NCBI GenBank assembly: GCA_009746045.1
Contig: RPFO01000079.1
Location: 3,429,909-3,493,908, forward strand
Length of the DNA: 64,000 bases
From: Mesostigma viride
Lineage: Eukaryota; Streptophyta; Mesostigmatophyceae; Mesostigmatales; Mesostigmataceae
Reading direction: 5' to 3'
Position numbers and translations under genes: made by a program. This document shows, in pieces, positions 11,486 to 52,112 of the stretch. The notes beneath the pieces are model-generated. The model had not been told where the DNA came from. It worked only from the letters and a program-made list of their open reading frames with translations, and made no database searches. How positions within the stretch are numbered: position 1 is the first letter of the stretch; each line of letters begins with the position of its first letter.

Positions 11486-11582
11486 CTCCTATTGAATTGA
11501 ATTGAATTGAATTGTAACATAACTCCGTTGGGAGGATATGTAGCACATAGCCCAGAGAAGGGGCATATGGCCTATCATACAT
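11486..11582 (-). mobile_element. LINE-C 3' tail, second copy
   Basis: An (AATTG)n tail at about 11490-11514 followed by GTAACATAACTCCGTTGGGA, the LINE-C terminal hairpin, on the minus strand. It is a heavily 5'-truncated insertion next to the preceding LINE-C piece. Confidence 0.6.
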
Positions 11583-11906: not shown

Positions 11907-13361
11907 CTATTCTACACTACTGCTGCTGTATTCCCCTAGGCTGGGGCTGCTGGAGTCGCTGGGGCCGCGGTGGTCGAGGGGGTCGCGTGCCAGGGCTTGT
12001 GGCCGACGTAGATGGCCGCCCCCTTCCAGTACACCGGCTGGCCCGCCTTGGTCTGCCGGAGGCTGCTGGAGGTAGGTCGGCCAGAGCTCCCGTCGCCGTT
12101 GTTGCTGCGCCAGGGTCAAGTCGTCGTCCACGGTGAAGGCCCGAGTGTTCTCGAGCCGCTTGCATGCGGCGTCTGAGAAACGAAATCTTGTCCGCTGGGC
12201 TGTCAAAGACGAGAAGAAGCGGAGGCGCCCCTGCCTTACCCCGCGCGCGGGGTAGGCGGTGGGCGGTCAGCTTAATCTCACCAAGGAGGCCCATGCGTGC
12301 AAGGATTTTGCTCTCAAACGCACGTGCAAGCTTCTCGGAATTCTCACCTTCCACCATGTCGAAGTTCTTGAGTATGGCGTTGAGGCTACGCTTGGCGAGC
12401 TCGGCCTCCTCGCGCGGAGGTCAAGCGTCTGCCGTTGGAGCTGGGCTGCGACGGCGGAGGTGGTGGAGGTGGTATGTTGCTTAAGCGCATGTCCGCCCAG
12501 GTCGTGATGGGAGGAGCATCGCCGGCCAGGCCAGCAGGGGCTGGCTTGGCGGCAATGTCCTTCACCGCCTGGGCGGTGAGGCCTGCGGTGTTCTGCAGGA
12601 CCTCGATAGCGATGGCATTGTCCCTAAGACGCTGGTCGATGTCGCGGAGCTGGGCGGTGATGGAGTCGGTGGAGGCGGAGGGGGGGGTGGGGGTGGAGGC
12701 GAGGAGGGTGGCGGTGGCGGTGGGGATGGTGGGGAGCTCAGCAGCCAGCGTGCGCCCCACAGCTGCCACATCTGCAGCAAGGGGCGTCACGTGCTGTGAG
12801 AGGGCGTCGTGCCGGAGGTGGCGGAGGAAGGTGGATTCGGTAATGGGGGCGGGTTGCAGGAGGTCCGCGGCCGAGCGCTTAGTGAGGGTAAAGAGAGCTG
12901 CGAGCTGAAGGCGGGGGCGAGACCAGCCGGCCATGTTGGCTGAAGAAGGGGCGTCAGATACGCGGTCGGAAAACTTGCCGTCAGCTCCATTGCGGAAAAG
13001 GTGGGTTCTGGAATGGAATTGCTCGCACAGGGCCAGCGTGGGACCCGTAAAACTCGAGCTCCAGTATTTTGATGGATGGCAATGCGAAAAAGGCAGGCCT
13101 GTTGACGTCGAATTCGGCAAAGAGCTGATCAACGTCAAAATCACGCTCAGACCAGCCAGGTGCGCCTGGGCGACTGCGCTTTGGGTCAGGCGATGCAGAG
13201 GGCGAGGAAAGCCCGGGAGGGTTCTGGGCGACCACCAGTGCGCGACTAGTGTCACCACTGCCGTCCGGCCCTGATGGCGAAGCTGCAGCCGGAGCTGCAG
13301 ACGTATTTTCATTGCCGAGCGCAGCCGTCAGGCTGCGTTGCGTCGATGGGCGTTTGCTCAT
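11907..13361 (-). mobile_element. LINE ORF1 relic (RNA-binding protein), frameshifted
   Basis: Minus strand. It starts MSKRPSTQRSLTAAL at 13361, has a Pro/Ser-rich N terminus, a middle region with a coiled-coil-like stretch (AQLRDIDQRLRDNAIAIEVL), then SEKLARAFESKILARMGLLG, a FDSPADKISFLRRR segment and VDDDLTLAQQQRRRELWP. The same LDDDLTPAQQQQRRD block occurs at 14265-14510 and 63261-63557 and matches the layout of LINE ORF1 proteins (coiled coil, RRM-like fold, C-terminal domain). The protein is spread over three reading frames, so at least two frameshifts have inactivated it. No ORF2 follows directly. Confidence 0.72.
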
Positions 13362-28940: not shown

Positions 28941-31900
28941 ATGAAGGCTTTTCTGGTCGCCGGGACCTTCAGCGGAGTGGGGAAGACCTCCATCGCCGTC
29001 GGTTTGATGGCTGCGTTCCGAAGAAGGGGGATGAGGGTCCAGCCATTCAAAGTCGGCCCAGGTTTGTTTAATGTGCTGCCGCTTGCATTTCTAAATGCTG
29101 GCTCCTTGCATGAGCAGCCATCCACATCTCAAGTGCGGTATGACAGCCCGCGTTTCATCACATCATCATAAGGTTTTACTCTTGTGATCCGAACCCACTA
29201 AGTTGGACGGGGGAAGTGCCTTGTTTCTACAATTCTCCTCTCTATGCACATGTTCGCATGGCCATATGTGGGATGCATCCCAGGAAATCTAGCTAGACTC
29301 TGATCTACACCGTTTTTGGTCCTGGCTACTTGACGGACAGTGTGTACTTTGCTTCGTTATGCTCCGCAGCCATCAAGGCTTGTCTATTTTCATCACAGTA
29401 CGTTGTGCTGGCGGTGCACTGCCATTATATAAATCATGCAAGAGGTCCTGTGTTGGAATCCAGTATCGTACCAAACTATTTCACTGTTCATGTCCCTATC
29501 AGACGAACATATGTGTTTAGCATCCCATGAGATAACATCCAACAATCCCATCATTACAGCTGACAGTGGTGCCCGCCTACACAGTTGTGTGGCTCAACTT
29601 CGGCCTCGCATATATGGGGCTGAAACTGGACCTGCTTCTCTCCCGCCCGACGCCTAAAACACTGGCATCTGCCCCTTCAGACCAGGGCTAGACCACCATG
29701 AAACCAAGGCTGACCCTGTCTTCCATCCAAGTATTTGCACACAGATTTCCATCTGAGTTTCCTTTGCATACCCATATCAAAGGTTGCGTCGTCTCCATTC
29801 CTTCATGCATCTTCCTTCTTGCTTCCATCCCACCCACGTGCCCGTCTGCGCCCAGACTTCATCGACCCGATGCACCACGAGCTGGCAGCGGGGCGGCCTT
29901 CGTGGAACCTGGATGGCTGGATGCTTGAGAAGTAAGCCCGTGCTTACATGGCAGGCTTGCCCATCATTTTGTCCATGCTGACGCGCCAGGCTCTTGCCCT
30001 TGATCCGTGCAGCTCTTCTACGTCCTCCAGGTGCACGGTTTCTGGACGTGTGTTGCCCCCCTTGTGTGAAGGACATGTGGATGGTGCACTTGGGGTACAC
30101 AGGCTGGGGTTGGGAAGCCGCATGTGTGGGGGTTGGGTGGCGGGTGGCGGTGTGAGAGACCTGTTGGGTGGGGTCCTTAAGGTGGCGGGGGTGGGTAAAA
30201 GGGTTTTACCTCGTGCCTTCTCCCCTGCAGCCAGTTTTTTTTGCCGTTCAGCATGGTGTCTTACATTGCCCTGCATAAGAGGCTGGTTCGAGAGTGTTTA
30301 GGGTGCACACCCCAATTTATTCGACTGGTCAGTCTAGATGTCCCTACCTCATTCCCAAACCTTTATTGGTGTTGCGTAGCATTCTCAATGCAGCAGCCCA
30401 GTCCCTCTCTTTTGCCTTACTCACTTTCCCACCTGCGTGACAATTCTCCCCCCAGCTGTCTCAGCTTCCATTTCATCTCGTTCCACTCCATCGCATCTCC
30501 CCTGCTCTTTGGGGGCTTGTCCTTCCCTTTTGGGGGGCTTGTCCTTCCCTTTTGGGGGGCTTGTCCTTCCCTTTTGGGGGGCTTGTCCTTCCCTTTTGGG
30601 GGGCTTGCCCTCCCCTCTTCCCACTCCGCTCGTCCCGCCCGCGGCCACGCCCCTGCAGGGACAAGGTCGTCTCCTGTTTCTGGCAGCAGGTGGGCAGCTG
30701 CGACGTGGCGGTCATTGAGGGCGTGATGGGCCTCTTTGACGGCCAAGATGCGGCCACGGACGCGGGCAGCAGCGCTCAGCTCGCTAAGTGGCTGGACGTG
30801 CCCGTTGTGCTGGTGCTCGACTGCTCCGCGCTCTCCCGCTCCGTGGCCGCCGTCGTTAAGGGTTTTGTCGAGTTTGACCCAAAGCTGCGCTTTGCGGGGC
30901 TCATCTTCAACAAGGTGGGTGCGCAAGCATGCGTGTTTGGCTTGGGATGGGCTCATCGACAGCAAGGTGGGCACGCGCACATGCGCGTGTCGTTGTGTTT
31001 GTAATGTTGTTGGACAGATGATGTGTGCAGGTAACGAGGGTTGCACTTGGAGGAGGAGGAGGAGGAGGAGGAGGAGGAGGAGGAGGAGGAGGAGGAGGAG
31101 GAGGAGGAGGAGGAGGAGGAGGAGGAGGAGGAGAGTAGTGCTTGTGTGTGTGTCTCCGTGCCCAATCTGTGTGGGAGGGCATTGTGCCGGCTTTCAGCAA
31201 AAGCGATGTCACTTTCTCATGAAGAGTTTTGTGGGCTGAGCGACCGATGGTTTGGAAAGCCTTCTGAAGAAAAAGATGGTCTGTGTTGCGGAAGAAGACC
31301 GACTCGTGTCTGTGTGCATGTCATCGTCAGAACATGGAGGCGACCGTTGATGATTAGCAGGCTGCGTCTATAGATAGTGGCGTCAACGGTGAGGAATGCG
31401 CACTGATATGTGTAGGCACTGATACGTATTAATTAGGAACATAACTGATAGGAATGCGCACTGATGCGTGTGGGCACTGATACGTATTAATTAGGAACAT
31501 AACTGATAGGAATGCGCACTGATGCGTGTGGGTACTGATACGTATTAATTAGGAACATAACTGATAGGAATGCGCCCTGATATGTGTGGGCACTGATACG
31601 TATTAATTAGGAACATAACTGTTAGGAATGCGCACTGATGCGTGTGGGCACTGATGTGTGTGGGCACTGATGCGTGTGGGCACTGATGCGTGTGGGCACT
31701 GATACGTGTGGGCACTGATGGGCACTGATACGTGTGGGCACTGATGCGTGTGGGCACTGATACGTGTGGGCACTGATACGTGTGGGCACTGATACGTGTG
31801 GGCACTGATGCGCACTGATGCGTGTGGGCACTGATGTGTGTGGGCACTGATGCGTGTGGGCACTGATACGTGTGGGCACTGATACGTGTGGGCACTGATG

Positions 31901-34900
31901 GGCACTGATACGTGTGGGCACTGATGCGTGTGGGCACTGATACGTGTGGGCACTGATGCGTGTGGGCACTGATACGTGTGCGCACTGATACGTATGGCGC
32001 ACGAACATGCCTCGGGGGGACCTGCGAATAGTTCATCATGCTTGGGCTCGCAGCACATCAGCGCTGACCACCACGACATTCAGGCAGTTTGCCCAGTAAA
32101 CCGCGGGTCCTTCCGTTGAGTCCCCTCACTAACACGGGTTCCCCCTTCCCCCCCCAACCCATGTGCACCCTCCCCAGGTGGGCGGCCCGGGCCACACGGC
32201 ATGGCTGCGTGACTCGGTCGAGAAAGCCGGGCTGACCATCCCCATCCTGGGGGGTGTTCCGAACGAGGCCGGCGTGGGCGTGCCCGAGCGCATCCCCGGC
32301 AACCGCATCCTGGCCAGCCACCCGCAGGAGATCCACGGCGCCAGCATCAGCACCAGCAGCAGCGGGCTGTTCCGCACGGGGTCCTACGACGGGGCCAACA
32401 GCGGGGGGGGGAGCACGAACGGGGGCCTGAATCGGCCCACGGTGGGCTGGCATTCCAACCGGGCACGGACAAGCACCAGCCGAGGTGCCGGCCCTGGGGG
32501 CGGCGCCCCCTCAGGGGCCCGCTCGCCCAAGGCAGTCCAAGGGGGGGCTGAAGGGGGTGGAGCCCCACCCGTGGGTGCGGTTCAGCCTATCAGTAGTGGG
32601 GGTGGGGGTGGCGCGCGCCAGGTTAATTATGTGGAGAGCCTCGCGGACATGGTGGTGCGTTGGCTGGACCTGGACCTGCTTCTCAAGTCGGCGGCGGGGG
32701 GCAAGGTGACGATGCTGGCCAGCTCGCGCATTGCGCTCAACCACCCGCGGCGCGCGCGCACGTTCCACAACCTTTACCCCGGGATGGAGCGGCTGGTGAG
32801 TGGCCTAGTCATCCCCATATCATCGTTTAGCACGCACTGGGTGGCACGAGCTTCTTTTCCCTAAACTGGTCTGTGTAGTTGTCGGATACACAGTCTATTT
32901 GATAATAGAATTCTACATCTATTTGATGCACTGGAGTATCAGTTTTTTCAGTACATTACTTCGTTGTCATGGCGGGGGGGGCTGTGGAGCTTGAGCCAGC
33001 TTGGGTGCGTGCCTGTACCTTCGTGAGCAGCGTTTGGTAGGCCTGTCTGAATCTGTTATCCGGCAAAATACCTTTTTTTTTCCTCTCCTTTTCACATGCT
33101 GTGCTGGCTCGCTCTCTGCACCGGGGCGAGGCAGCATGCCCCATGCTTTTATCCACATTACTATCCAAGATCCCCTCAGCACATTCTGTCCTTTTGATGT
33201 TTGGGCCTGACTACACCCATCCCGTCCCATCCCATCCCATCCCATCCCATCCCATCCCATCCCATCCCATCCCATCCCATCCCATCCCATCCCATCCCAT
33301 CCCATCCCATCCCATCCCATCCCATCCCATCCCATCCCATCCCATCCCATCCCATCCCATCCCATCCCATCCCATCCCATCCCATCCCATCCCATCCCAT
33401 CCCATCCCATCCCATCCCATCCCATCCCATCCCATCCCATCCCATCCCATCCCATCCCATCCCATCCCATCCCATCCCATCCCATCCCATCCCATCCCAT
33501 CCCATCCCATCCCATCCCATCCCATCCCGATCCCCCCAATGCACAACCTACCCCCCCCCCCCCACACACACACCATCACCACCAGGAGCGAAGAAGCTTT
33601 GGCTCCGCAACCGCCCCTTCCGTTGTGCCCAACGGCGGCGCGCTTCACACCATACGGGACCAGCGGATGAGCTGCGATGGCGTGGAGTCGAGTTCTTCTC
33701 TCCCGGTCCCCGATGGGGGCAGCCGTGTGCGCCCGCGTTATGCCGACAACGGCACCTTGCTACCCTGTGATGGCCTGCCCTCGGAACCTGGGGCCGTCCC
33801 TGCTCTTCCCTACGATGACCCGTTGAACGCGGCCGATGGCGCGCTATCGGACGTGGGGGGCAGTGTCAATGGGGGCTGGTCCATGCATGGTAGTGTGGGT
33901 GGGTGGTCCATGCACGGGGGAAGCACGGGCGGCAGCGTGAGCGGGGGCGCCCCCTTGGTGCGGTTTGGCAGCAGCAACATGGGGTACGCGGTGTCCACCT
34001 CTGTGTCGCCGCGGGCGCGTATTATCATCGGGATCGCCCATGACGAGGCCTTTTGCTTCTACTACAACGAGAACTTGTCGCTGCTGCGAGGTGAGTTTGG
34101 AATACGCGGAGCAGGAAGGTGAGGACATTACTTATAAGAAGGTAGGAGATTGTTGTTCATTATAGTAAAGTAATTTCGTGAACATGCACTGAAGGCATGC
34201 CACGGAGTGCCCGATGAGGTACTTTTCATAATAGGAATAGGAATATAACGTGAGAGCATCAAGGACTTGAAACTGATTCTTCGCTCGTGCATGGTGGGGC
34301 ACGATGGCGTTGAAGATGAACCACCTGAGAAGAGGTTGCCCTGCAACGCTAAAGAATGGTATCCCTTGGTCGCTGTACTGGTCACTGTAGCCCGTTGATG
34401 GTTGCCTTGTGAAGCTTTCGAGAATCGAACATGTGCTGCAATGGGGGTCGGCTGTGATGGGGAAGAAAGTGATGGCATCCTTTGGTGTGGCTTGTGGGGC
34501 TGGAAGCTTGCTTTTCACTTTGGAGGGAAGGGAATACTTCCTTTGTAAGTCTCGGCTGGCCAGGCTCAGGTGCCATGTGCAATGTGGAAACGGCGTGTAT
34601 CGGATCATTCAAACAGTTAAGCTGACCAGGTCCCCCTCAACTGGCGTGTGCCCATATGCTGCTGCAAGTTGAGCGTGCCCACGTGCCCCGCCATTTGTTC
34701 TTGTGCCGACATGCTGGAAGGTGTTCCAGTGCCTACAAGCCCCTGCAGCGTATTCATGTGCCCACATGCCCTGCACCCCCCCCACACACCCTGCCCCCTG
34801 CCCCCTCCACCAGAACACGGCGCCGAGCTGGTCTTCTTCTCCCCCATGTACGACGAGGAGCTGCCCCTGGGGGTAACGGGCCTCTATTTCGGGGGCGGCT

Positions 34901-37900
34901 ACCCCGAGCTCGTCGCCGAGACGCTCACCGGCAATGTGCGCATGCTGGCGTCCGTCAAGGCGTTTGCCGACGCGGGCGGCATGGTGTACGGCGAGTGCGG
35001 CGGCCTCATCTACTTGTCGCAGGCAGTCGAGACGGCCGAGGGCGTGCGGTACCCGATGGCAGGCGTGCTGCCCTTCAGCGTGCGCATGGTGGCCAGCATG
35101 ACCATGGGGTACATCGAGGTGGGTATATTGTTGGGGTATACCTGCAGTAGTATACGTGGTATATCGAGTTGGGTGGTGGCCAGCATGACCATGGGGTAGT
35201 ACATCGAGGTGGGTGGTGGCCAGCATGACCATGGGGTAGTACATCGAGGCGGGTGGTGGCCAGCATGACCATGGGGTAGTACATCGAGGCGGGTGGTGGC
35301 CAGCGTGACCATGGGGTAATACATCGAGGTGGGTGGGGAACGTTTAGGCTTGTGCCTTGGGGATAAATTAAGGTGGGGGTGGGAGGGGAATTTATTCTTT
35401 GAGGGGGTTTTGATGTGGCTTGTAGAGGGTATGTCCAGGTGGATGGTGGCCATGACGCAGTCACGTGCTTTTGATCAAGGTGGATAGGGGAGGGGTGTGT
35501 CGATGTGGGTGGGATGGGGGTGGATGGTGGTGGGTTCTTTAGGATCGAATCCAGCTCTGTGGATTTGGGGGTTTGCTTGCGGTGGTGGGTGGCTAACTTA
35601 ATCAGTCAACCAAGCTCGCTGTCCCGTGGTGGCTAAAGGACACCCTATCGAGGCTGAGGCGAGTACCAGGAAATGAGGGGATGGCGCAAGCAATTCCCCA
35701 GGCGGTGACTACTACGAGGCGCATCGAGATGCGAGGGGGTGCGCACGATGGCGCTGTATGGCTTTGTAAGGCAATCTGCATAGGGCTACAATAACAAAGG
35801 GCTATGATTCTTTAGCTTTGTAAGGCAATCAGCATAGGGCTACAATAACAAAGGGCTATGATTCTTTAGATTTGTAAGGCAATCAGCATAGGGCTACAGT
35901 AACACAGGGCTACGATTCTTCAGCTTTGTAAGGCAATCAGCATAGGGCTACAATAACAAAGGGGTATGATTCTTTAGCTTTGTAAGGCAGCGGCTCCTCA
36001 GGTGGTGGGGCTCTAACTCTAAGGCTGCCAAGTGCACCATTACCACACGTGCCCTCCCCCATCCCCACCACCGCACATGCCCACCCCCACACATGCCCAC
36101 CACCGCACATGCCCAGGTCGAGACACTCCCCAGCTGCAACCTGTTCCCGCCCGGCCAGCTCGTCAAGGGCCAGCTGTACCACTTCTGCGAGATCACGTGG
36201 GACACCCACGACAGCCACATGCCTCCGATGGGGTCGGCCGTCGGGGGCGCTTGTCCCCCCTGTGGCTACGCAGACGCCTCGCGCCACCGCCCGGTGTGGG
36301 GCTCCCGCAACTCCTCGGAGCTGTCGCTGCGGGGGGGGCGGCTGCGCAAGGATGACAGCGGGGGGCACGTGGCAGCGGCGGGGCTGGAGCTTGGGTTCCG
36401 GGTGCGGCCGCATTGCCCGGGGGTGGAGGAGGTGCCGCCCCCCATGTTTGAAGGGTTCCTCAAGGTTCGTCCATCTACTGAATAGATGGCTCCTTTGCTG
36501 TAAGATTGGTTGATGTTCCGGTTTTGAGGTGCCTTTGCATTCTAGAAGTAGCAGATCTAGATAGCAGAGTAAGGGCTCAGTCGTGGTCAACCAAGGTCAC
36601 ATGTTAGTGCATGCTGAGTGACTAGTGGGTAACACTCTTACCTCACATCCTTCCGTGTGGGTGGACCACAATTTCAGGAACCGTGTGGGTGGACCACAAT
36701 TTCAGGAACCGTTGTCTTGCTTACAATGTAGGGTATAGCATCGAGGCCATGGGTGCGGGGGGGAGAGTCAGCACGCACCCGAGCGCAAGCGTGCGCCCAG
36801 AACGAGGGAACCCGGACCCTCATCCAAGGGCATCGCCCTCGTGACGCCTCGGTGCCGAAGAAAGTGGGGGCTGTCGAGATGTGGGAGGACGGAGAGGACA
36901 TCCTGGTAGTGAAGCAACTTGACCGATTAACATGCGGTTTCTTCTGGCTACGATACATCCCGTATGTGCAGAATAAGGCACACGCCCGGTGCTCTTATGG
37001 TTGCATGCACATGTCCACGTGTCGATTGACGAAAGTCTGAGCTGTTTGGCTGTGCTGTAGACGAAGTCCGTGCCCACACTAGCATTTGTCCGTGGGCAAC
37101 CCCAGCTCTCTGATCTAGTCTAGGGGTGGAAGGTCAGTATGGGAGCAAGGCAGGAGCTCTTGGAAGACATCAACGGTGAATGCGAGGTGGGGTCGGTGTT
37201 CTTGTCTAGAACCGCCTGCCTTGTTATTCCCAATCTGATAAGGCATCACGCCCTGTCTGGCACAGACCTGCCTCATGCAATTGCCCCAGGTTCTGCAGAC
37301 ATACCCATGTTTATCATACCAAGGCATGCTAGTATTTTTATAGCTGATCTTCACCCATGTTTATCATACCAAGGCATGCTAGTATTTTTATAGCTGATCT
37401 TCTTACAGGTTTTAGACCTGCGCTGGTCGTCTCATGATAAATATCGATCGCCGCCCTTCCTCTGTAGACATACTAGCGTTGGCGAGAGACCGGTCTACTA
37501 TCACCGATGCTTTCATCTATGTGTCGCTGCCCTTCACAACCATTTGCCATCCCTCCTCCCCGGCCCACACGCACACACGCACACTGCTTGCACACAACAC
37601 CACGCGCCACTCCCCCTCAGAACATGACCCTGGTCACGCTGGCCCACCTCCACTGGGGCAGCAACTCGCTCCTCCCGCAGTCGCTCATCCAGAAGTGCGG
37701 CATGGTTGCCTGCCTCGACGCCGTGGTGCGGGCCGCCGCCGCCGCCGCGGGTGCCTCTGCGGTCATGCCTGGGACCGCAACGCTCGCTGCCGCCGCCGTC
37801 ACCTCCGCCAACACTGCTGCCAACAGTAGCCATAATATTAACCCTGCTGCCGCGACCGCCGCCAGCAGCGACGGCATCGCCAGCAACGTGGCCTCCGGTG

Positions 37901-40900: not shown

Positions 40901-43900
40901 GGATGGATGGTGGTGGGTGGATGGTGAGGGATGGATGGTGAGGGATGGATGGTGGTGGGTGGATGGTGAGGGGTGGATGGTGAGGGATGGATGGTGAGGG
41001 ATGGATGGTGAGGGATGGATGGTGAGGGATGGATGGTGAGGGATGGATGGCGAGGGATGGATGGTGAGGGATGGATGGTGAGGGATGGATGGTGGTGGGT
41101 GGATGGTGGTGGGTGGATGGTGAGGGATGGATGGTGAGGGATGGATGGTGGTGGGTGGATGGTGAGGGGTGGATGGTGAGGGATGGATGGTGAGGGGTGG
41201 ATGGTGAGGGATGGATGGTGAGGGATGGATGGTGAGGGATGGATGGTGAGGGATGGATGGTGAGGGATGGATGGTGAGGGATGGATGGTGAGGGATGGAT
41301 GGTGAGGGATGGATGGTGGTGGGTGGATGGTGAGGGATGGATGGTGAGGGATGGATGGTGAGGGATGGATGGTGAGGGATGGATGGTGAGGGATGGATGG
41401 TGAGGGATGGATGGTGGTGGGTGGATGGTGAGGGATGGATGGTGAGGGATGGATGGTGAGGGATGGATGGCGAGGGATGGATGGTGGTGGGTGGATGGTG
41501 AGGGATGGATGGTGAGGGATGGATGGTGAGGGATGGATGGTGAGGGATGGATGGTGAGGGATGGATGGTGGTGGGTGGATGGTGAGGGATGGATGGTGGT
41601 GGGTGGATGGTGGTGGGTGGATGGTGAGGGATGGATGGTGAGGGATGGATGGTGAGGGATGGATGGTGAGGGATGGATGGTGGTGGGTGGATGGTGGTGG
41701 GTGGATGGTGAGGGATGGTGAGGGATGGATGGTGAGGGATGGATGGTGAGGGATGGATGGTGGTGGGTGGATGGTGAGGGATGGATGGTGAGGGATGGAT
41801 GGTGAGGGATGGATGGTGGTGGGTGGATGGTGGTGGGTGGATGGTGAGGGATGGATGGTGAGGGATGGATGGTGAGGGGTGGATGGTGAGGGATGGATGG
41901 TGAGGGATGGATGGTGAGGGATGGATGGTGAGGGATGGATGGTGAGGGATGGATGGTGGTGGGTGGATGGTGGTGGGTGGATGGTGAGGGATGGATGGTG
42001 AGGGATGGATGGTGAGGGGTGGATGGTGAGGGATGGATGGTGAGGGATGGATGGTGAGGGATGGATGGTGAGGGGTGGATGGTGAGGGATGGATGGTGAG
42101 GGATGGATGGTGAGGGATGGATGGTGAGGGATGGATGGCGAGGGATGGATGGTGAGGGATGGATGGTGAGGGATGGATGGTGAGGGATGGATGGTGAGGG
42201 ACGGATGGTGAGGGATGGATGGTGAGGGATGGATGGTGAGGGGTGGATGGTGAGGGATGGATGGTGAGGGATGGATGGTGAGGGATGGATGGTGAGGGGT
42301 GGATGGTGAGGGTTGGATGGTGAGGGATGGATGGTGAGGGATGGATGGTGAGGGATGGATGGTGAGGGATGGATGGTGGTGGGTGGATGGTGAGGGATGG
42401 ATGGTGAGGGATGGATGGTGAGGGATGGATGGTGAGGGATGGATGGTGAGGGATGGATGGTGAGGGGTGGATGGTGAGGGATGGATGGTGAGGGATGGAT
42501 GGTGGTGGGTGGATGGTGAGGGATGGATGGTGAGGGATGGATGGTGAGGGATGGATGGTGAGGGATGGATGGTGAGGGATGGATGGTGAGGGATGGATGG
42601 TGAGGGATGGATGGTGAGGGATGGATGGTGAGGGATGGATGGTGAGGGATGGATGGCGAGGGATGGATGGTGGTGGGTGGATGGTGAGGGATGGATGGTG
42701 AGGGATGGATGGTGAGGGATGGATGGTGAGGGATGGATGGTGAGGGATGGATGGTGAGGGATGGATGGTGGTGGGTGGATGGTGAGGGATGGATGGTGGT
42801 GGGTGGATGGTGGTGGGTGGATGGTGAGGGATGGATGGTGAGGGATGGATGGTGAGGGATGGATGGTGAGGGATGGATGGTGGTGGGTGGATGGTGGTGG
42901 GTGGATGGTGAGGGATGGTGAGGGATGGATGGTGAGGGATGGATGGTGAGGGATGGATGGTGGTGGGTGGATGGTGAGGGATGGATGGTGAGGGATGGAT
43001 GGTGAGGGATGGATGGTGGTGGGTGGATGGTGAGGGATGGATGGTGGTGGGTGGATGGTGGTGGGTGGATGGTGAGGGATGGATGGTGAGGGATGGATGG
43101 TGAGGGATGGATGGTGAGGGATGGATGGTGAGGGATGGATGGTGAGGGGTGGATGGTGAGGGATGGATGGTGAGGGATGGATGGTGGTGGGTGGATGGTG
43201 AGGGATGGATGGTGAGGGGTGGATGGTGAGGGATGGATGGTGAGGGATGGATGGTGAGGGATGGATGGTGAGGGGTGGATGGTGAGGGATGGATGGTGAG
43301 GGATGGATGGTGAGGGATGGATGGTGAGGGATGGATGGCGAGGGATGGATGGTGAGGGATGGATGGTGAGGGATGGATGGTGAGGGATGGATGGTGAGGG
43401 ACGGATGGTGAGGGATGGATGGTGAGGGATGGATGGTGGTGGGTGGATGGTGAGGGATGGATGGTGGTGGGTGGATGGTGGTGGGTGGATGGTGAGGGAT
43501 GGATGGTGAGGGATGGATGGTGAGGGATGGATGGTGAGGGATGGATGGTGAGGGATGGATGGTGAGGGATGGATGGTGAGGGATGGATGGTGAGGGATGG
43601 ATGGTGAGGGATGGATGGTGAGGGGTGGATGGTGAGGGGTGGATGGTGAGGGGTGGATGGTGAGGGATGGATGGTGAGGGATGGATGGTGAGGGATGGAT
43701 GGTGAGGGGTGGATGGTGGTGGGTGGATGGTGGTGGGTGGATGGTGAGGGATGGATGGTGAGGGATGGATGGTGAGGGGTGGATGGTGAGGGATGGATGG
43801 TGAGGGATGGATGGTGAGGGATGGATGGTGAGGGATGGATGGTGAGGGGTGGATGGTGAGGGATGGATGGTGAGGGATGGATGGTGAGGGGTGGATGGTG

Positions 43901-46900
43901 AGGGATGGATGGTGAGGGATGGATGGTGAGGGATGGATGGTGAGGGGTGGATGGTGAGGGTTGGATGGTGAGGGATGGATGGTGAGGGATGGATGGTGAG
44001 GGATGGATGGTGAGGGATGGATGGTGGTGGGTGGATGGTGAGGGATGGATGGTGAGGGATGGATGGTGAGGGATGGATGGTGAGGGATGGATGGTGAGGG
44101 ATGGATGGTGAGGGGTGGATGGTGAGGGATGGATGGTGAGGGATGGATGGTGGTGGGTGGATGGTGGGGGGTGGATGGTGAGGGATGGATGGTGAGGGAT
44201 GGATGGTGAGGGATGGATGGTGAGGGATGGATGGTGAGGGATGGATGGTGAGGGATGGATGGTGAGGGATGGATGGTGAGGGATGGATGGTGAGGGATGG
44301 ATGGTGAGGGATGGATGGTGAGGGATGGATGGTGGTGGGTGGATGGTGGTGGGTGGATGGTGAGGGATGGATGGCGAGGGATGGATGGCGAGGGATGGAT
44401 GGTGAGGGATGGATGGTGGTGGGTGGATGGTGGTGAGCGGATGGTGGTGGGTGGATGGTGGTGGGTGGATGGTGAGGAATGTGTGAGACCCTCTTTGCGT
44501 GCGCTGGGGAAGACATCGGCCATGAGGGATGTGTGAGACCCTCTTTGCGTGCGCTGGGTGAGGCATGGTTTTGGATATCATGAACATGCGTGCATGCATG
44601 CGATGATGCACAGCATGTGTATGTCATTCAGCAATCATTGGTATGTCATTCAGCATGTGTGTAAGATCACTTTAGGGCTAAGTGGGGCATGGGGGGGAGG
44701 TCACGAGAGGGGGGGGGGGGGGAAGGAGGATGGACATGAGAATAGAAAGCAGGGAGGGCTGAGGCTGAGCTTACATGACAGTGAAGGGGATGATGCTGAT
44801 GTACAGCATGGGAAAGGGGACGGGAGGTGTACTCTTGGTGATTGGTGAATGGGATGGCAGTATTAGTTTTCGCTGGTTAACTGCAGTTCTCATGTACAGT
44901 TCTGCTGAGCACCACTCGCCAGATCACCTCAGCGGCTATATGTGTGCGCATTGCCCGCACGGGCCCCAAAGTGGCGTCTGTCAGCATGGTGGTGCCCTAC
45001 TGTCCCAGTGGAGGTGCATTCCGACTGGCTCATGCATGGCCAGGTGCGGAAGATCGGTTGTCACAGGTATTTGTGTTACTGCACACCGCACACGAACTGA
45101 CGCCATGATCATCTTGTGGGTGTGTTTTGGGTGGGTGGGGGTGGGGTGTGGGGGGGTGGGGGGGGGGTCGCGTTATTCTCTGTGGGCGTTTGGGCGTGTG
45201 GGCGTGTGGGCGTGTGTGTCTGGGGCTCTTTCCATGCGGCATGTGCGTGCATACGACCGGGTTCCAAATCCTTTCAATCACCTCTTATTCCACCAGGGAA
45301 GCAAACCTGCCTGGTTGCGGCATCAACGTGGTGCAACTTCCCCAGCCAGGGGCCGAAGCAGCTTGGCCTGGTAAGATAGCTCCTGGATGTAGCTCCTGTT
45401 CTTCCGCTTTTACTGATTTCTTGCATGCGGGGCGAGGATCCTCGCGCCGAATGCAAGCGATTGCTGTCCAGGTCGTGGTCCGCCGCTGTGTCCGGTCAAC
45501 CACACCATCGTCGCTCTCTATGAGACGCTCCTTTGTGCAAGAACAGTGCGAATCGGGTGATGTCCCATCCGTGAGCAGAGCGACGCAGGGATTGGATTGG
45601 ATAACAGGAGGGCAGTATTTTAGGCAGGGGGCAGAGGTGGTGGAGGACTGCCACACTTGCAACCGCTGGTGGGTTTCTGCCATCATGTCCGAACCATTCT
45701 TTTCGTTTCTGATGTTTTCAAGGCAATCTTGTCCCTCAAAGAACCTCGTTTTTGTTCATGCCTTGGTGCTGTGTGTGGCTTGGCTGCACATCTATCAGCT
45801 GGTGCCCTTTGTATGATGCAAACAACCGCATACTGAACAAGCCACTTTATGGATATGGTGGCTGCACCGCCCCCCCTCCTCCCTCCCCCCTCCCCTTCTC
45901 CCCCCTTCCATGTGAAACTTCCCCCTTATGCCACACGCTTCCTCTCCACAGTCGCCCGCCGGCAACCCTTCGGTCCACAGCAACCGGTCGCCCGACGGAA
46001 GCTTCCCCCCGCCCCGGCCGAGCGGTGGCAGCGGCAGCACCGAGGCCTCGCTCAGTGCCGGCTACGGTGGCGCTAGCTGGCCCCTGGTGGGGGACAGTGT
46101 CGCGGATCAAGGAGACTTTGGTGGCCGGCCTGCCAAGCTGCGCATCAACCCATCTGGCCTGCTGCCTAACGTGGTCATCCTGCAGGTGAACCGTGGTGGT
46201 TGATAGCAGCGCTGGGGTCGTCAGCCAGTAGTCGGCGCGATAGCAAAGCACTTCTGGCCTCCCGCACTGTAGCACTGCTCAACGTCACCATCCCGCGGGT
46301 ACCCCCCTTGCTGAGATTAGAGTTCAGATATCCGGACCATGTAGGAGAATGGCCGTCCTCCCAAAGTCCGGCTGTAGGGGGGGGGTGACAGTCCTAGCGC
46401 ATGGGGACTTGGCTAGTTGCGTATGCTTGTCATTGGTAGGGGCGATGCGCGAGCTGCTTTGTTGATGTTGGGGCACCGCGAGTCCCGCAAACCCCGTGGT
46501 GGCTGTGGCGGTATGCAAGCGCACAAGGACACGGGCCCCTGGCGCAGTCATCCCAATTCCGTCGGATTGGATTGTGGTTCTATCCCTCTCATCTTCCCCT
46601 GCCCCGATGTGAGCAACCGGATGTGACTGGAGGCTTGCGGCTGAAGTCAGCGGTTAAAGGCAACTGTTAAAGGCAGTGGTTAAAGGCAACTGTTAAAGGC
46701 AGCGGTCAAAGGCGGTGGTCAAAGGCGGCGATGAAAGGCAAGGCTTATAGGCAGCGGGGAAAGGCAGCGGTTAGAGGCAGCACAGGGGTAAAAAGTCTCA
46801 TGACGGAGACAGCCCGTGCATATGTACGATCCTGTGGCTTGGAGAGAAACGTTTTCGAAAGATGTCTCCCTGCACCAGGAAAAAGACAGAAAGCTTGGGG

Positions 46901-48819
46901 TACCTGGAGGCTGCGGTCATGCTGAGATATGTCATGATTCACACTACAGCACATGCGCCAGCCGTGCATGCCCTGACTGACACACTGTCGCAACTTCTTG
47001 CCTGCCCTGACTGACACACTGACCCCTTATCCTCACTGCCATCCCACGCCCTCCCTTGCCCTCCCCTTGCCATCACGGTTTGTCCACTATCCTCCCGGAC
47101 ACCCCCTGTCCTCCTGCGCACGTATGTCTGCCACCTGGCAGGAGCGCAACTGCGCGCTGGACCTGAGCCCCAGTGAGCTGATAGTTGCGCTGGAGGAGGC
47201 CAAGGTGGAGACCGAGGTCACCGTGTTGGTGCTGCCGCTGCCCAAGCGGGTGAGGGCGCGCGCCTCCCACCTCCCATTTCCCGCCATCTGTCACTGGCCC
47301 CCACGATGAAACGTTTCTTTCTTATGCTTGCGATGAAACGTTTCTTTCTCATGCTTGCGATGAAACGTTCCGTTCTTATGCTTGCGATGAAACATTCCTT
47401 TCTCGTGCTTGCGATGAAACGTTTCTTTCTCATGCTTGCGATGAAACGTTTCTTTCTTCTGCTTGCGATGAAACATTTCTTTCTCATGCTTGCGATGAAG
47501 CGTTTCTTTCTCATGCTTGCGATGAAACGTTTCTTTCTCATGCTTGCGATGAAACGTTTCTTTCTTATGCTTGCGATGAAACGTTTCTTTCTCATGCTTG
47601 CGATGAAACGATTCTTTCTCATGCTTGCGATGGAACGTTTCTTTCTTCTGCTTGCGATGAAACATTTCTTTCTCATGCTTGCGATGAAGCGTTTCTTTCT
47701 CATGCTTGCGATGAAACGTTTCTTTCTCATGCTTGCGATGAAACGTTTCTTTCTTATGCTTGCGATGAAACGTTTCTTTCTCATGCTTGCGATGAAACGA
47801 TTCTTTCTCATGCTTGCGATGGAACGTTTCTTTCTCATGCTTGCGATGAAGCTTTTCTTTCTCATGCTTGCGATGAAACGTTTCTTTCTCATGCTTGCGA
47901 TGAAACGTTCCGTTCTTATGCTTGCGATGAAACATTCCTTTCTCGTGCTTGCGATGAAACGTTTCTTTCTCATGCTTGCGATGAAACGTTTCTTTCTTCT
48001 GCTTGCGATGAAACATTTCTTTCTCATGCTTGCGATGAAGCGTTTCTTTCTCATGCTTGCGATGAAACGTTTCTTTCTCATGCTTGCGATGAAACGTTTC
48101 TTTCTTATGCTTGCGATGAAACGTTTCTTTCTCATGCTTGCGATGAAACGATTCTTTCTCATGCTTGCGATGGAACGTTTCTTTCTCATGCTTGCGATGA
48201 AACGTTTCTTTCTTATGCTTGCGATGAAACGTTTCTTTCTTGTGCTTGTGATGAAACGTTTCTTTCTTGTGCTTGCGATGAAACGTTTCTTTCTTACGCT
48301 GATTTCTTTCGCTGCTTGTATGTGTCTTTGTTATCGTGCTATTGGTTCCAATTTCGTCGTTGTTGCTTTTATACGTTATGTCGCATCGCCTTCTTGCGAA
48401 TTCCACGGGTGCCTTGTGTGGGCTTACGGGGCCACTGTCCGCCATCACCCATACATCATCCTAGTCAACCGCGCCCAGCCTCTCAGAGCCTGATACATAA
48501 AGAGCGTGTAGACATCATAGTGCTCTGATCTCCCCTCGGGTCCCATCCCACGTGCATGCCAAACCTCGCCCACGTTGCACCCATCACGCGTGCTTGCCCA
48601 TCTGCGTGTGCTTGCCCATCTGCGTGTGCTTGCCCATCTGTGTGTGCTTGCCCATTCGCGTGTGCTTGCCCATCTGCGTGTGCTTGCCGATCGGCTTCTG
48701 ACCCTCGGTCGCTTGCTTGCGTCCCCTTTCCCCTCCCGCCCTCCCCATGCCCTGTCCTCGTCCACTTGCACCCCTGCCTTTGTCCCCTATCTTCCCCCAC
48801 CATCACTACCACCACCATC

Positions 48820-48862
<43 letters not shown>

Positions 48863-51800
48863 CTGGCGGACGTGCTCGTGTACGTGCGTGTGATGGGCCG
48901 CTGCGCCAACGACCCCAAGGCCGCCGCCACACTCATGGCCGACCTGCAGGCGCGGCTGCGCAACGTGCTGACACTCGTCACGAGTGCCAACGCGGCCAGC
49001 GCTGCTGCTGCTGCCACCGTGGCCGCGGGCGGGTCCATCGCAGGGGGATCCGTGTCCCTTGGATCTCTCGGCTCGGACCGCGCTCCCCGCACGTCCAGCC
49101 TGTCCTCCAGCACTGGCAGCGTGAGCATGCAGATGCCAGCATCGGCGCAGGCGTCATCGGTGTCGGCCCCTGGGGGCATCCCTCTGTGGCCGTCCCCCCC
49201 TCGTGTGGTGGTACTGTGCGCGCTGCAACCGCTCACGCTGGCCGGCTTCTGGGTCCCTGAGATGGTGGCCATGGCGGGCGGCATCAGCGAGCTGCAGGTA
49301 GGGCGGGGGGGGGGGGCGGTGCGGGCCAGGCGATGTCAGCCCAACGTGACGTATGGAAGTGTTTCAGCCTCCCGTGTGAAGAGAAAGGGCCAGCCCCGTC
49401 CTTCATGGTGGCAGCAGCCCCTGGGGGGAGGTCGCCTAGTTGGGTAGTGTATCCATGATATGATAGTTTGCTAGTAGAGGAAAGATGTAGATGTAGATGG
49501 AGCGAAGTGCATTGATGTTGTTGCCATTGCCAGATCTGCTGTGTAATGGGAAAGAAGCTTGTCTTCATCCTGTTCGCCCGTACTACCAGTTACAAAGCAG
49601 ACATGATGACTTGATGGCCAATAATGTCTGCTATCGCACCTACGCATCGGCAGAAAGGGCCGTGGCTGTCCTGTTATCGTAAGCCCTGAACTCTAAGCCC
49701 TAAGCAACATGATCAGCCGCATGCCCCTTGCTTGCATTCCTGTCCCCTTTCCCCACCCACCCACCCCACCCACCCCCACCCCCTTTGTGCCTTGTGTTGC
49801 TTGCCACCTTGCCCTAGTCCTTTTATTCTCACTGTGTCGTGTATATCAATTAGACAACTACTGTACTGTGTCATTTTATTCTCGCTGTATTGTGTAGTTT
49901 TGCATTATGCCCCTGTCTCCCCTCCCTGTCCGTGCGCTTTGTGTGTTCCTCTTCGTGTCGTTTCCCTATGTGTGCTCGTCTACTCCCCATCATCTGACCT
50001 TTCCCTCTGTGTGCTCGGCTACTCCCCTATCCCAGGTGTTCAGACCACCCACATGGCAATACCTACACCAGTAGCAAGTTTTTTGGTTTGAATCAGCCTC
50101 ATAACAAGAACCAACCATGCATACATGCATCCACCGTGTTATCCACACATTACATCATCCACCGTGTTATCCACACATTACATCATCCACATATTATCCA
50201 CACATTAAATCATCCACATATTATCCACATATCATCCACCATGATATCCACACATTGCCCCGCACGCGCAGGAGGCGGGCAGGAAAGGCGCCACCATCAA
50301 GTGGCCGGTTCTGCTGGAGTACGCCCCCGATGTGATCGTGATCGTGGCGCCCCCCAATGCGACGCCCAAGCGATACGTGGCAGAGGTGAGTGCCCTTTAT
50401 CCTAGGATGCGAGACGTGGCGGAGGTGGGTGTTCTTCTTCCTGCGACACGTGGCGGAGGCAGGTGTAAGCAAGGTGTGGCAGGGGCCAGTGCATCGAGTG
50501 CAAGTAATATTTGGCGTAGGTCAGGCGGCAGGCACACTATGTTCCCCTTGTTTAGGAACCTCTGCAGCGAGTTGGTGTAAGGGGGGGGGGGGGGGGGGGG
50601 GGCGATGGACAAGGTACCTGTGGCCTTTGTCAGTGTGCCGCTCTGCAAACCCATGCCCACCGATGTTTGGCTGTGCCCGCTGATGTTTGGCAATGCCCAC
50701 CAATGTTTACATGCCTGCCTCTTTGTGTGTGTATGCCTGTCTCTTTTTGCATGTATGCCCATGCCTGCCACGGTATACTCATGCCTGCCTCTGCACTCCA
50801 CCCCATGTCTGCGCCCCTCGCTACCAGGTCAAATGCCTGACCAAGCTGCGTGGGTTCTGGGACATGCCGGCCGTGCAGAAGGGGCAGGTCTTTGTGTGCG
50901 ACCACTCGTGCTTCTGCCGACCAGGGCTACGGTACGGTGAAGGTTTGGAAAGCGGGAATAGACCACCAGGGCTGAGCAGGAACTTCCACCAGGGGTTCAA
51001 TACGACGAAGATTAGGAGAGCAGGAATAGACCATCAATCACTTGACAGGGGCTGCCGTGCGAAGCAGTGGGACCACGTGCGGCCCTGCCATGTGATTCTT
51101 CTCTACCCATGATGGCTTTACTTTGGGCCCTCGCTTTGTGCAGGCATTGCAGAGGGATTTGCATGGCTAGCATAATGATTGGATTGATTCTGGCATTCCG
51201 TATTAGTCCATTGGCATGTTGGCTTTTGCTCAGCTGTGCTGCTCCATTCAGGGGACGATAATGCAAGGTGTGTTGCAAGCAAGGAATCGGATAGGCATGG
51301 CTGAAAAAGAAAGTGCTCTTTTGAACGCCTGTTTAAATGAACTGGGTTTTCCATGCGATTTTCTTTCGCGCTGAGAGTTCTTTGCCATAAGGGTTTCTTT
51401 CCTAGGGGGTGATTTCGTTGTAAGGGTTTCTTTTGTTAGGAGTTTCTTCTTTGTAATGGTTTCTTGTGTTGAGAGTTTCTTTGTTGTAGAATGTAGGGGT
51501 TTATTTCATTAGGAGTTTCTTTGTTGCAAAGGTTTCTTTTGTTGAGAGTTTCTTTGTTGTAAGGGTTTCTTCTGTTGGGAGTTTCTTCGTTGTAAGGGTC
51601 ATGCATGCAATTGCTAAATAAAGCTACCCGCTTACTGTTGTTAGATATCACATACTGCCAGTTCTCTCACACAGGGGCCAACTAGACAGGGACGTAAGTC
51701 TTGCGGATTGAATGATTGCTCATCGTGTCTGTACGTAGTTCGCCTTTCTCATCTCCATCCGCCACGCGTATCCTGAAATTCGCAGATGTTACTGTTCATG

Positions 51801-52112
51801 AGAAGCCAATTTTGTGCAATGGTTGGCCAAACTGTAATTCCTTTCAGTGGAGATGCTTTGGACATTTTTGCTTTTCTACCTTGACAAAGTTTCTAAACAT
51901 ATGTGCTCTGTCAACATGTGTGCTCTCTGCCCGCCCATGGGACTTGTTGTTGCAGATTGGTGGATGGGGTGGAGCTATTGGCGCGTATCCTATACCCCAG
52001 TTGCATACAGATCCTGCCGCCCTTGGGGTCATGCTGGCAGCTGAAACCCTATTCCGTACGGCGTAATTCTGGCAGCCAAGAGATGGAGAAGCTCTTCCAG
52101 GCGTACCGATGA
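28941..52112 (+). CDS. CobB-BtuF fusion: cobyrinate a,c-diamide synthase joined to a class III binding-protein domain, 15 exons
   Basis: Exons: 28941-29061, 29856-29931, 30659-30914, 32178-32795, 33586-34090, 34814-35118, 36117-36464, 37621-40035, 45297-45370, 45952-46185, 47142-47249, 48863-49297, 50272-50385, 50828-50931 and 51956-52112; all GT-AG. The product is about 1,956 aa if one base is restored at the G10 run 39652-39661; otherwise translation stops at 39741. CobB part: Walker [11 protein letters not shown] (residues 8-17), [29 protein letters not shown], then the class I glutamine amidotransferase domain with [29 protein letters not shown], nucleophile Cys in GECGG (about 587) and AHLHWGSN (His about 752/754). 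Known family reaction: ATP- and glutamine-dependent amidation of corrin side chains a and c. A Ser/Gly-rich, probably disordered stretch of roughly 700 residues follows. BtuF part (about 1515-1956): [58 protein letters not shown] and [12 protein letters not shown]. No signal peptide is visible, so the domain is probably cytosolic. Two separate genes remain possible (second start ATG 39978). Confidence 0.82.
30510..30625. repeat. 22-bp minisatellite in intron 2 of CobB-BtuF
   Basis: About five copies of GTCCTTCCCTTTTGGGGGGC TT, ending about 35 nt before the exon 3 acceptor. Overlapping open frames are spurious. Confidence 0.9.
31050..31134. repeat. (GGA)n microsatellite
   Basis: About 28 GGA triplets in intron 3. 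They read as poly-Glu, poly-Arg, poly-Pro or poly-Ser in various frames; none is a gene. Confidence 0.97.
31384..31995. repeat. GTGTGGGCACTGAT-type minisatellite
   Basis: Two layers in intron 3: four longer units of about 60 bp containing TACGTATTAATTAGGAACAT (31384-31640), then many short units GCACTGATRCGTGTGG (31640-31995), some joined as GCACTGATGGGCACTGATAC. Antisense frames rich in HTYQCP are artefacts. Confidence 0.93.
33214..33531. repeat. (CCCAT)n pentanucleotide array
   Basis: About 63 nearly perfect CCCAT units in intron 4, ending 55 nt before the exon 5 acceptor. Every frame is open (PIPSH... / MGWDG...), all spurious. Confidence 0.97.
35094..35335 (+). repeat. Exon 6 end plus donor, followed by four 40-bp copies in intron 6
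   Basis: The real exon end CAGCATGACCATGGGGTACA then TCGAG|GTGGGT (35094-35124) is followed in the intron by four 40-bp units starting at 35181, 35221, 35261 and 35301. Each has CAGCATGACCATGGGGTAGT then ACATCGAGG(T/C)GGGTGG. Each copy carries a donor-like GAG|GTGGGT or GAG|GCGGGT and an in-frame stop (GGG TAG, or TAA in the last). Confidence 0.93.
35757..35990. repeat. 54-bp minisatellite in intron 6
   Basis: About 4.3 units of exactly 54 bp (GTAAGGCAATCAGCATAGGG...), with GTAAGG starting at 35766, 35820, 35874, 35928 and 35982. GTAAGG is itself donor-like. Confidence 0.92.
37329..37403. repeat. 53-bp direct duplication
   Basis: CCCATGTTTATCATACCAAG through TATAGCTGATCTTC occurs twice in tandem in intron 7, starting near 37302 and 37353. 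Confidence 0.8.
37621..40035 (+). other. Exon 8: CobB C-terminus, long linker, start of BtuF domain, with frame break
   Basis: The exon opens with the conserved CobB end ([20 protein letters not shown]), runs through about 1.9 kb of Gly/Ser/Ala/Asp-rich sequence, and ends with [17 protein letters not shown], the first strand and helix of a BtuF/FecB-type domain. The first frame stops at 39741, and the BtuF frame is open across the same stretch from 39549. Exon length plus intron phases require one extra base (or two fewer), and the run of ten G at 39652-39661 lies in the overlap. Assembly error, true frameshift or two genes are all possible. Confidence 0.7.
40050..44475. repeat. Giant 15-bp minisatellite filling most of intron 8
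   Basis: Roughly 290 units, mainly GGATGGATGGTGAGG with the variant GGATGGTGGTGGGTG. It begins directly after the exon 8 donor (GCTCG|GTGAGTCATGG). Nearly all units contain GGTGAG, a strong 5' splice-site match. Because 15 is a multiple of three and few units vary, all minus frames stay open for about 1,500 codons; these are not genes. Rare variants recur at spacings of about 1.2 kb, showing higher-order duplication. Confidence 0.97.
47306..48300. repeat. 27-bp minisatellite in intron 11
   Basis: About 37 units of GATGAAACGTTTCTTTCTCA then TGCTTGC. Being 27 bp it reads as nine-residue repeats (MKRFFLMLA on +, two others on -) with no stops. Variant units recur with a 540-bp offset (for example GTTCCGTTCTTATG at about 47367 and 47907), so blocks of 20 units were duplicated. 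Confidence 0.95.
48586..48695. repeat. 18-bp minisatellite
   Basis: About six copies of GTGTGCTTGCCCATCTGC in intron 11. Confidence 0.9.
48823..48862. repeat. (CA)n tract forming the exon 12 acceptor
   Basis: About 19 CA units ending ACACACAG directly at the exon 12 border. There is no pyrimidine tract, so the CA run itself occupies that position. Confidence 0.85.
51375..51600. repeat. GTTTCTTTGTTGTAAGG-type degenerate minisatellite
   Basis: Repeated GGGTTTCTT and AGAGTTTCTTTGTTG units in intron 14. Confidence 0.8.

Follow-up and report, generated by a model that had tools for sequence, protein, structure and literature searches.

A CobB-BtuF fusion gene of Mesostigma viride and its relatives across eukaryotes

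Eukaryotes are held not to make B12, according to the excerpts of PMC11439496 used here, and work on their B12 genes has so far dealt with uptake, trafficking and use. The described systems closest to the subject of this report are the CobB/CbiA a,c-diamide synthases, the periplasmic binding protein BtuF, the algal cobalamin acquisition protein CBA1 and the DUF71-B12 proteins. A CobB-like protein is recorded for a prymnesiophyte transcriptome in the excerpt of PMC4057078, and the terms CobB, BtuF and diamide have no occurrence in the main text of PMC11439496, a survey of eukaryotic B12 genes. A CobB-BtuF fusion is not described in the excerpts of PMC7455551 and PMC3942190, and no description of one was found in the literature searched, which excludes preprints and most subscription papers. 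Here we report on such a fusion gene in Mesostigma viride (Streptophyta), in which a CobB-type a,c-diamide synthase is joined to a BtuF-like class III solute-binding half. It lies in a stretch of 64,000 nucleotides, hereafter the window (C2022:3429909-3493908 in the 440-Mb assembly searched), and the CobB-BtuF fusion to which it belongs is an old, widely shared eukaryotic family that is not peculiar to Mesostigma viride.

A whole-protein search scored on the CobB region returned 18 proteins of 1066-1880 amino acids (aa), for which precomputed domain assignments give PF01497 in 12 and CbiA, GATase_3 and PF01497 together in nine. A profile of 12 of these proteins yielded 252 matches at E <= 1e-20, of which 120 were listed, and 122 different relatives were pooled from the 18 proteins and the 120 listed profile matches. 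Both halves are matched (BLAST, 1e-5) in 102 of the 122 listed relatives, the BtuF match being missing in 20. Relatives with both halves occur in green algae (Micractinium, Nannochloris, Myrmecia, Trebouxia, Auxenochlorella, Prototheca, Monoraphidium and Chloropicon), in land plants (the liverworts Marchantia and Riccia, the moss Ceratodon and the lycophyte Diphasiastrum), in oomycetes (Saprolegnia, Achlya, Aphanomyces and Thraustotheca), and in Triparma, the dinoflagellates Prorocentrum and Polarella, Chromera and Pavlova; a reading of locus names (Chlat1, SM, Mesen1, Tetstr1) adds Chlorokybus, Spirogloea, Mesotaenium and Tetraselmis as members. The named oomycete, dinoflagellate and Triparma members (P0008, P0009, P0194 and others) are extended by Kelch repeats together with a DUF5522 domain (PF17653) rich in Cys, in place of which the green members have a short conserved tail. 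The protein of the window fits this family, with CobB first, both halves in one protein, and a position within the eukaryotic CobB and BtuF clades. A viral source was considered and rejected, as no relative was found among viral contigs.

The CobB half scores 413 bits against the NCBIfam CobB equivalog NF002204 (cut-off 254) and lies above the curated cut-offs of both NF002204 and TIGR00379. Pfam scores of the window protein are 66.8 bits for CbiA and 83 bits for GATase_3, and the BtuF half matches PF01497 at 31.3 bits (threshold 27.5). The CfbB model NF033195 gives 339.7 bits, below its cut-off of 560, by which membership among the CfbB proteins (Ni-sirohydrochlorin a,c-diamide synthase) is ruled out. 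All CobB sites examined are present in the window, namely the P-loop Lys, the Asp of GPD, the Glu of EGVMG, the Asp of GLFDG, the Cys of GECGG and the His of AHLHW, residues that have catalytic or ATP-site roles in CbiA. Counts over 99 fused relatives and the window, taken from rows with a letter at the site, show the P-loop Lys in 76 of the 76 rows reaching it, the GPD Asp in 85/86, the EGVMG Glu in 90/94, the GLFDG Asp in 99/99 and the amidotransferase Cys in 95/99, with the first and second His of the HLHF motif in 86 and 91 of 97 rows, respectively. The four members that lack the amidotransferase Cys, by identifier P0176, P0212, P0217 and P0223, have Gly (Riccia, P0217 and P0223) or Ser (Diphasiastrum) in its place. 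In the BtuF half, a Cys in the motif C(D/N)xP is found in every eukaryotic row with a letter at that site (no fewer than 75 of the 100 rows) and in 42/42 non-fused relatives compared, and a CxxC pair is found in the same 42/42 and in about 80% of the eukaryotic rows.

The AlphaFold2 model of a compact Chlorokybus relative, computed from 44 aligned sequences, has a mean predicted local distance difference test score (pLDDT) of 88.5 and a predicted TM-score (pTM) of 0.80. Foldseek searches with this model match one half to heme binders, E. coli BtuF (1n4a, with a TM-score of 0.85 normalised to the target length) and further class III binding proteins, and the other half to CTP synthase and GatD. 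The window protein has no signal peptide, its CobB half beginning at residue 1 and its BtuF half being internal. A search with the BtuF half gave 528 matches, 120 of them listed (282-328 aa), and those listed ones that carry an organism name are bacterial or archaeal. The first-strand motif is seen in 114 of these 120 non-fused matches, starting by residue 25 in 113 and at residue 30 in one, and the remaining six begin at or just past the motif. Because the motif is so near the N-terminus, the nearest listed relatives of the BtuF half have no room for a signal peptide.

Phylogenetic analysis indicates that the eukaryotic CobB halves, those of Chlorella relatives and liverworts among them, have a single origin. 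A quick tree built from 125 CobB rows groups the 39 eukaryotic ones, without exception, and four of the six unlabelled ones at 99, with L004, titled an Actinomycetes metagenome-assembled genome (MAG), as sister at 95. Careful trees recover the eukaryotic clade at 100/98, then at 100/99 in two further trees, and an actinobacterial sister group, the support of which in three trees was 97/88 (L004), 98/93 (L004 and L122) and 99/92 (L004, L122 and L131). The CobB half of the window groups with that of Chlorokybus in two trees (92/82 and 98/86). As for the BtuF half, 31 of 32 eukaryotic rows fall together at 95 in one tree, the exception being P0221, and a second tree from which P0221 and others were left out unites 25 of 25 eukaryotic rows at 99/95. 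Closest to them is P0021, an unfused protein of 323 aa with a similar C-terminal tail, which joins the eukaryotes at 100/100. The origin indicated by the CobB half is an actinobacterial gene pair described below, whereas the BtuF half leads no further than the branch to which the partner in that pair belongs.

Two proteins of unusual build were met among the 102 relatives that match both halves. P0221 (Tetraselmis by locus name, 1372 aa) consists of a glycosyltransferase domain, a BtuF-like part near that of the Binatota L041, and then CobB; its CobB half does fall inside the eukaryotic CobB clade, and its reversed order possibly goes back to a separate, second fusion event or to an error in the gene model. 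P0231 (760 aa) has a bacterial-looking CobB running straight into a BtuF-like part with an apparent signal peptide between the halves, and perhaps represents neighbouring genes run together.

The first-pass annotation of the window had described a CobB-BtuF fusion gene in a eukaryote, made of an apparently intact CobB synthase and a class III solute-binding fold without signal peptide, and had proposed a domain search of the joined protein and a phylogeny of both halves. The P-loop, GECGG and AHLHWGSN motifs together with the NF002204 score bear out the intact synthase, and the PF01497 score and internal position bear out the second half; the search matched CbiA, GATase_3 and PF01497 alike, and the phylogeny gave the eukaryotic CobB and BtuF clades reported above. 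The fusion is real, but the trees and the 102 of 122 listed relatives place it in many eukaryotic groups and not in one alga. The BtuF half is not one of the periplasmic BtuF proteins and falls in a branch whose nearest listed relatives likewise offer no space for a signal peptide.

The gene spans 28941-52112 on the forward strand, with both ends exact, and comprises 16 exons and 15 introns, all GT...AG; the ends and the splice dinucleotides agree with the first-pass annotation, which had counted 15 exons. The spliced frame is open over 1924 codons, followed by TGA at 52110-52112, and encodes 1924 aa. An in-frame stop lies just upstream of the start codon, the stop-to-stop open reading frame (ORF) beginning at 28932. 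The CobB half occupies approximately residues 1-760 and contains two low-complexity inserts, a low-complexity stretch of about 700 residues follows, and the last 427 residues form the BtuF half. The public EukProt/JGI protein Mesvir1/26980 (P0001) has 100% identity to the first 760 residues of the predicted protein. The parts of the gene are as follows, from the splice table, with any further basis or caveat in brackets.
28941-29061, forward strand: exon 1, start codon and P-loop of the CobB half (same start in P0001)
29856-29931, forward strand: exon 2, CobB
30659-30914, forward strand: exon 3, CobB
32178-32795, forward strand: exon 4, CobB with a low-complexity insert
33586-34090, forward strand: exon 5, low-complexity insert, then start of GATase_3 (domain search)
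34814-35118, forward strand: exon 6, GATase_3 with the nucleophile motif GECGG (domain search)
36117-36464, forward strand: exon 7, C-terminal part of GATase_3
37621-39737, forward strand: exon 8, end of CobB with AHLHWGSN, then about 660-690 residues of low-complexity linker (3' end uncertain)
39738-39832, forward strand: intron 8 of our model, 95 nt (alternatives are an intron at 39467-39693 or a frame slip in a G-run)
39833-40035, forward strand: exon 9, end of the linker and first strand of the BtuF half
40036-45296, forward strand: intron 9, mostly a 14-bp minisatellite (repeat analysis)
45297-45370, forward strand: exon 10, BtuF half with the conserved Cys in WCNFP (residue comparison)
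45952-46185, forward strand: exon 11, BtuF half with an insert
47142-47249, forward strand: exon 12, BtuF half
48863-49297, forward strand: exon 13, BtuF half with GFWVPEM
50272-50385, forward strand: exon 14, BtuF half
50828-50931, forward strand: exon 15, BtuF half with CRPGLR
51956-52112, forward strand: exon 16, end of the BtuF half, C-terminal tail and stop (tail compared by eye)

The C-terminal tail (LKL...F.PY) resembles, as judged by eye, the tails of other green members, a likeness that supports exon 16. The in-phase stretch of 144 nt at 44923-45066 was considered as a further exon and discarded: again by eye, the BtuF match is clean when it is skipped and interrupted by unrelated residues when it is included.

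The sole uncertain join of the gene model is that between exons 8 and 9, where the frame of exon 8 meets a stop at 39741. In-frame splicing is possible in two ways, with the 95-nt intron at 39738-39832 or with a 227-nt intron at 39467-39693 derived from P0001, by which exon 8 would end at 39466. Judged by base composition at the three codon positions, 39421-39540 reads best in the first frame and the sequence from 39781 in the second, with ambiguous windows at 39301-39420 and 39541-39780. The other introns measure 442-5261 nt, in comparison with which a 95-nt intron is unusual, and a base lost in the G-run near 39660 would equally explain the frame change. Either intron, as well as the G-run slip, leaves both halves in one protein. 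The stop, the ambiguity at 39541-39780 and the short intron might also be taken to mean that two separate genes have been wrongly joined by the gene model, an explanation that we find hardly credible given that P0001 is likewise one gene spanning both halves and that both halves are matched in one protein by the 102 relatives, including P0171, whose name reads as a complete ORF on a transcriptome contig. The first-pass annotation had named two-gene homologues throughout related algae as evidence that would speak against a fusion; each homologue found in such algae is a single gene.

Several introns are rich in repeats. Intron 9 holds a 14-bp G-rich minisatellite of about 319 copies (40035-44481), one strand of which is nearly free of C, with a GC skew of 0.98 at 40001-44000. 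Intron 12 has a 27-bp tandem repeat of 36.7 copies (47304-48294) that is open in several frames on both strands, intron 4 a CCCAT repeat of 64 copies (33216-33534) and intron 3 repeats of 16-106 bp (31392-32002). Just upstream of the fusion gene, on the reverse strand at 26367-27554, lies a long open frame that by eye resembles part of a major-facilitator transporter.

In all three sister-group genomes, G001 (the source of L004), G079 and G259, a cytosolic BtuF-like gene stands divergently beside cobB, with 78, 101 and 109 bp, respectively, between the aligned stretches; in G079 the contig ends within the BtuF-like gene. This count covers the three sister-group members of the tree, a tree that did not include the CobB matches of G190, G193, G196, G232, G269 and G057, which extend over the N-terminal part alone (51-56% identity). 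The partner gene of the pair is of the same BtuF branch as the eukaryotic halves. In G259 the genes run BluB-CobT, CobC/CobD-type aminotransferase, CbiB, CobA, BtuD-type, BtuC-type, a Peripla_BP_2 protein with an N-terminal extension, the cytosolic BtuF-type gene and the divergent CobB, and the run is adjoined by a ribonucleotide reductase with a TSCPD domain, which is taken as the B12-dependent class II enzyme. The surroundings of the pair in G259 form a corrinoid salvage context, by the same clustering logic as has been applied to the DUF71-B12 proteins (excerpt of PMC3541065), and the full context is seen in this one genome. CbiC is present in G001 and was not found by genome search in G079, G259 or G107, an absence that is weak evidence as the assemblies may be partial; B12-binding domains occur in all four of these genomes, CbiB in G001, G259 and G107, and CobQ in G259 and G107.

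As a control, 80 prokaryotic loci were examined. A BtuF-like gene is present in the fetched flanks of 15 of them, so that a CobB adjoining some BtuF is not special alone; in nine it is directly beside cobB, and among these nine only that of L004 is of the cytosolic branch. One genome survey found a CobB match in 29 genomes, 27 of which also have a BtuF match, the two being adjacent in G001 and G259, which have the highest identity among the full-length CobB matches of that survey (55 and 53%). A second survey found both genes in 13 genomes, adjacent in G001 and G107, and the CobB of G107 groups with ordinary actinobacterial CobB. Leptolyngbya (L011) has a single CobB over the cut-off, and the idea that CobB genes near the eukaryotic clade have nothing to do with B12 synthesis was therefore given up. 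In L041 (Candidatus Binataceae), two consecutive CobB/CobQ-type genes and then a chlorite-dismutase-family gene lie at 8454-12225, with no cob gene among the other neighbours tested.

The Mesostigma assembly was searched in six frames, exon by exon, an approach by which split genes can be missed. The activation domain of B12-dependent methionine synthase is found on two exons (best E-value 1.2e-64), and a single contig carries nine matches to methylmalonyl-CoA mutase, of which one has an internal stop. CbiC and CbiB were not found in this search, and the sole CobQ match is the P-loop of the fusion gene itself (28947 of the window), with the limit just given for split genes. A PF01497 search of the assembly gave no match and missed even the BtuF half of the fusion gene. 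Mesostigma is likely a B12 user without ring synthesis.

The best reading, in our view, is that the protein serves cytosolic corrinoid binding and side-chain amidation in B12 salvage or repair, and we judge it about evenly balanced for and against. Each half would have a task of its own within a single cytosolic protein, the two being connected by a long, flexible linker. The BtuF-like half, which is of the cytosolic class III branch, would hold a corrinoid taken up from outside, and the CobB half would use ATP and glutamine to amidate acetate side chains of the corrin, which in the bacterial enzyme are those at positions a and c. Incompletely amidated corrinoids would thereby be completed or repaired and may become usable by the B12 enzymes of the cell. 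In the tree the eukaryotic CobB adjoins the bacterial CobB that is paired with a cytosolic BtuF-like gene, and the likely start was a fusion of such neighbouring genes. A cytosolic enzyme-plus-ligand-binder for corrinoid remodelling or salvage, or for another tetrapyrrole, had already been put forward in the first-pass annotation, and of these options corrinoid salvage is the most likely.

A number of observations weigh against the corrinoid reading. As CbiB and CbiC are unmatched in the exon-by-exon search, which can miss split genes, and CobQ is matched only by a P-loop, cobalamin would not be rebuildable in Mesostigma from cobyrinic acid by the known route, which would leave repair of the a and c amides. 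The nearest relative of the eukaryotic BtuF halves is P0021, and their sister group is not formed by the partner genes of the actinobacterial pair. The BtuF half of Mesostigma is divergent (end branch of 2.05) and has not kept the CxxC pair. The pair-bearing genomes are MAGs or assemblies that may be partial, whence the weakness of their missing CbiC, and one of the three, G001, has CbiC and a second, ordinary CobB. Land plants provide points on both sides. According to excerpts of PMC11439496, hornworts have retained B12-dependent methionine synthesis, which mosses and vascular plants have lost; B12-dependent metabolism is gone from vascular plants and possibly from liverworts, and of the B12 set liverworts have only CblB and CblJ. 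Marchantia nevertheless keeps the P-loop, the GECGG-type motif and the HLHF motif of the fusion intact, and the moss Ceratodon keeps both halves, in a gene model that lacks the P-loop; the loss of the nucleophile Cys in Riccia and Diphasiastrum, on the other hand, speaks for the corrinoid reading. This pattern fits a B12-linked role that fades where B12 use was lost, and the intact Marchantia copy leaves room for another role.

A rival reading is the same chemistry on another substrate, a non-corrin tetrapyrrole or metal chelate that is presented by the BtuF half and amidated, which we regard as improbable though not far-fetched. Enzymes of the CobB type also occur in pathways other than B12 synthesis, such as CfbB in that of coenzyme F430, whose model NF033195 reaches 340 bits here; the leading Foldseek matches include heme-binding proteins, some of which surpass E. 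coli BtuF in E-value; and the fusion persists in liverworts and a moss, mosses being reported to lack B12-dependent metabolism (excerpt of PMC11439496). However, the CobB model scores well above that of CfbB (413 versus 340 bits, with a CfbB cut-off of 560), and the G259 pair sits among corrinoid genes. A chlorophyll substrate is unlikely, as Prototheca and the oomycetes, which are not photosynthetic, carry the fusion. It is also conceivable, and in our estimate rather unlikely, that the protein is not primarily an enzyme and works in the cytosol as a sensor or chaperone of corrinoids, with a CobB half that would act as a nucleotide-dependent switch handing over B12. Both halves stay in members that have lost the amidotransferase Cys (4/99) or the first His of HLHF (11/97), and the Kelch and DUF5522 additions of oomycetes and dinoflagellates look like interaction parts; yet the Cys is kept in 95 of 99 rows, the P-loop Lys in 76 of 76, and the window retains all CobB sites examined. 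Very unlikely, finally, is a transferred gene in decay that no longer serves any role in Mesostigma, for which an open frame over 16 exons, kept CobB motifs and the grouping of the CobB half with Chlorokybus, as expected from descent, would be hard to explain, even with the long end branches (0.83-1.03 for the CobB half and 2.05 for the BtuF half), the long low-complexity inserts and the lost CxxC pair, which are what a decaying gene might show.

Beyond Mesostigma, a wider proposal seems to us possible rather than probable, namely that eukaryotes own a corrinoid- or tetrapyrrole-amidating step that was gained once from bacteria as a salvage pair, was fused early, and survives in algae, water moulds, dinoflagellates and liverworts, some of these lineages reportedly being without B12-dependent methionine synthase. 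If so, such lineages would point to a novel use of a B12-like compound, and the conserved Cys of the BtuF half might be a metal ligand. The spread of the fusion suggests a so far unrecognised handling step for B12-like molecules in many eukaryotes. If the protein is active, it makes testable whether eukaryotes can repair or finish corrinoids and what use this has in plants without known B12 enzymes, and Marchantia and Auxenochlorella are tractable hosts for such work.

The fusion can be set beside five known systems. It resembles the CobB/CbiA a,c-diamide synthases in its P-loop, GPD and EGVMG motifs and in a GATase_3 domain with GECGG, and differs from them in the added linker and BtuF-like half and in a host for which the searches for CbiC, CbiB and CobQ were otherwise empty. 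To periplasmic BtuF it is similar by the PF01497 score of the window and by the class III fold of the Chlorokybus model, whereas its BtuF-like half is internal, has no signal peptide and comes from a branch in which the Cys of C(D/N)xP is conserved. CBA1 is likewise a eukaryotic protein with structural likeness to BtuF (excerpt of PMC10828217); by the description given there, on which this comparison rests, it differs in having a signal peptide in Phaeodactylum and in acting in uptake, and no CobB part is mentioned in that excerpt. The DUF71-B12 proteins share with the fusion a B12 salvage role inferred from gene clustering, in their case with BtuCDF and cbiB genes (excerpt of PMC3541065), but they are a PP-loop ATPase family and not CobB. 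The actinobacterial pair of G001, G079 and G259 consists, unlike the fusion, of two divergent genes, and its BtuF and the eukaryotic BtuF halves are not sisters; its CobB is nonetheless sister to the eukaryotic CobB halves, and its partner gene is of the same BtuF branch.

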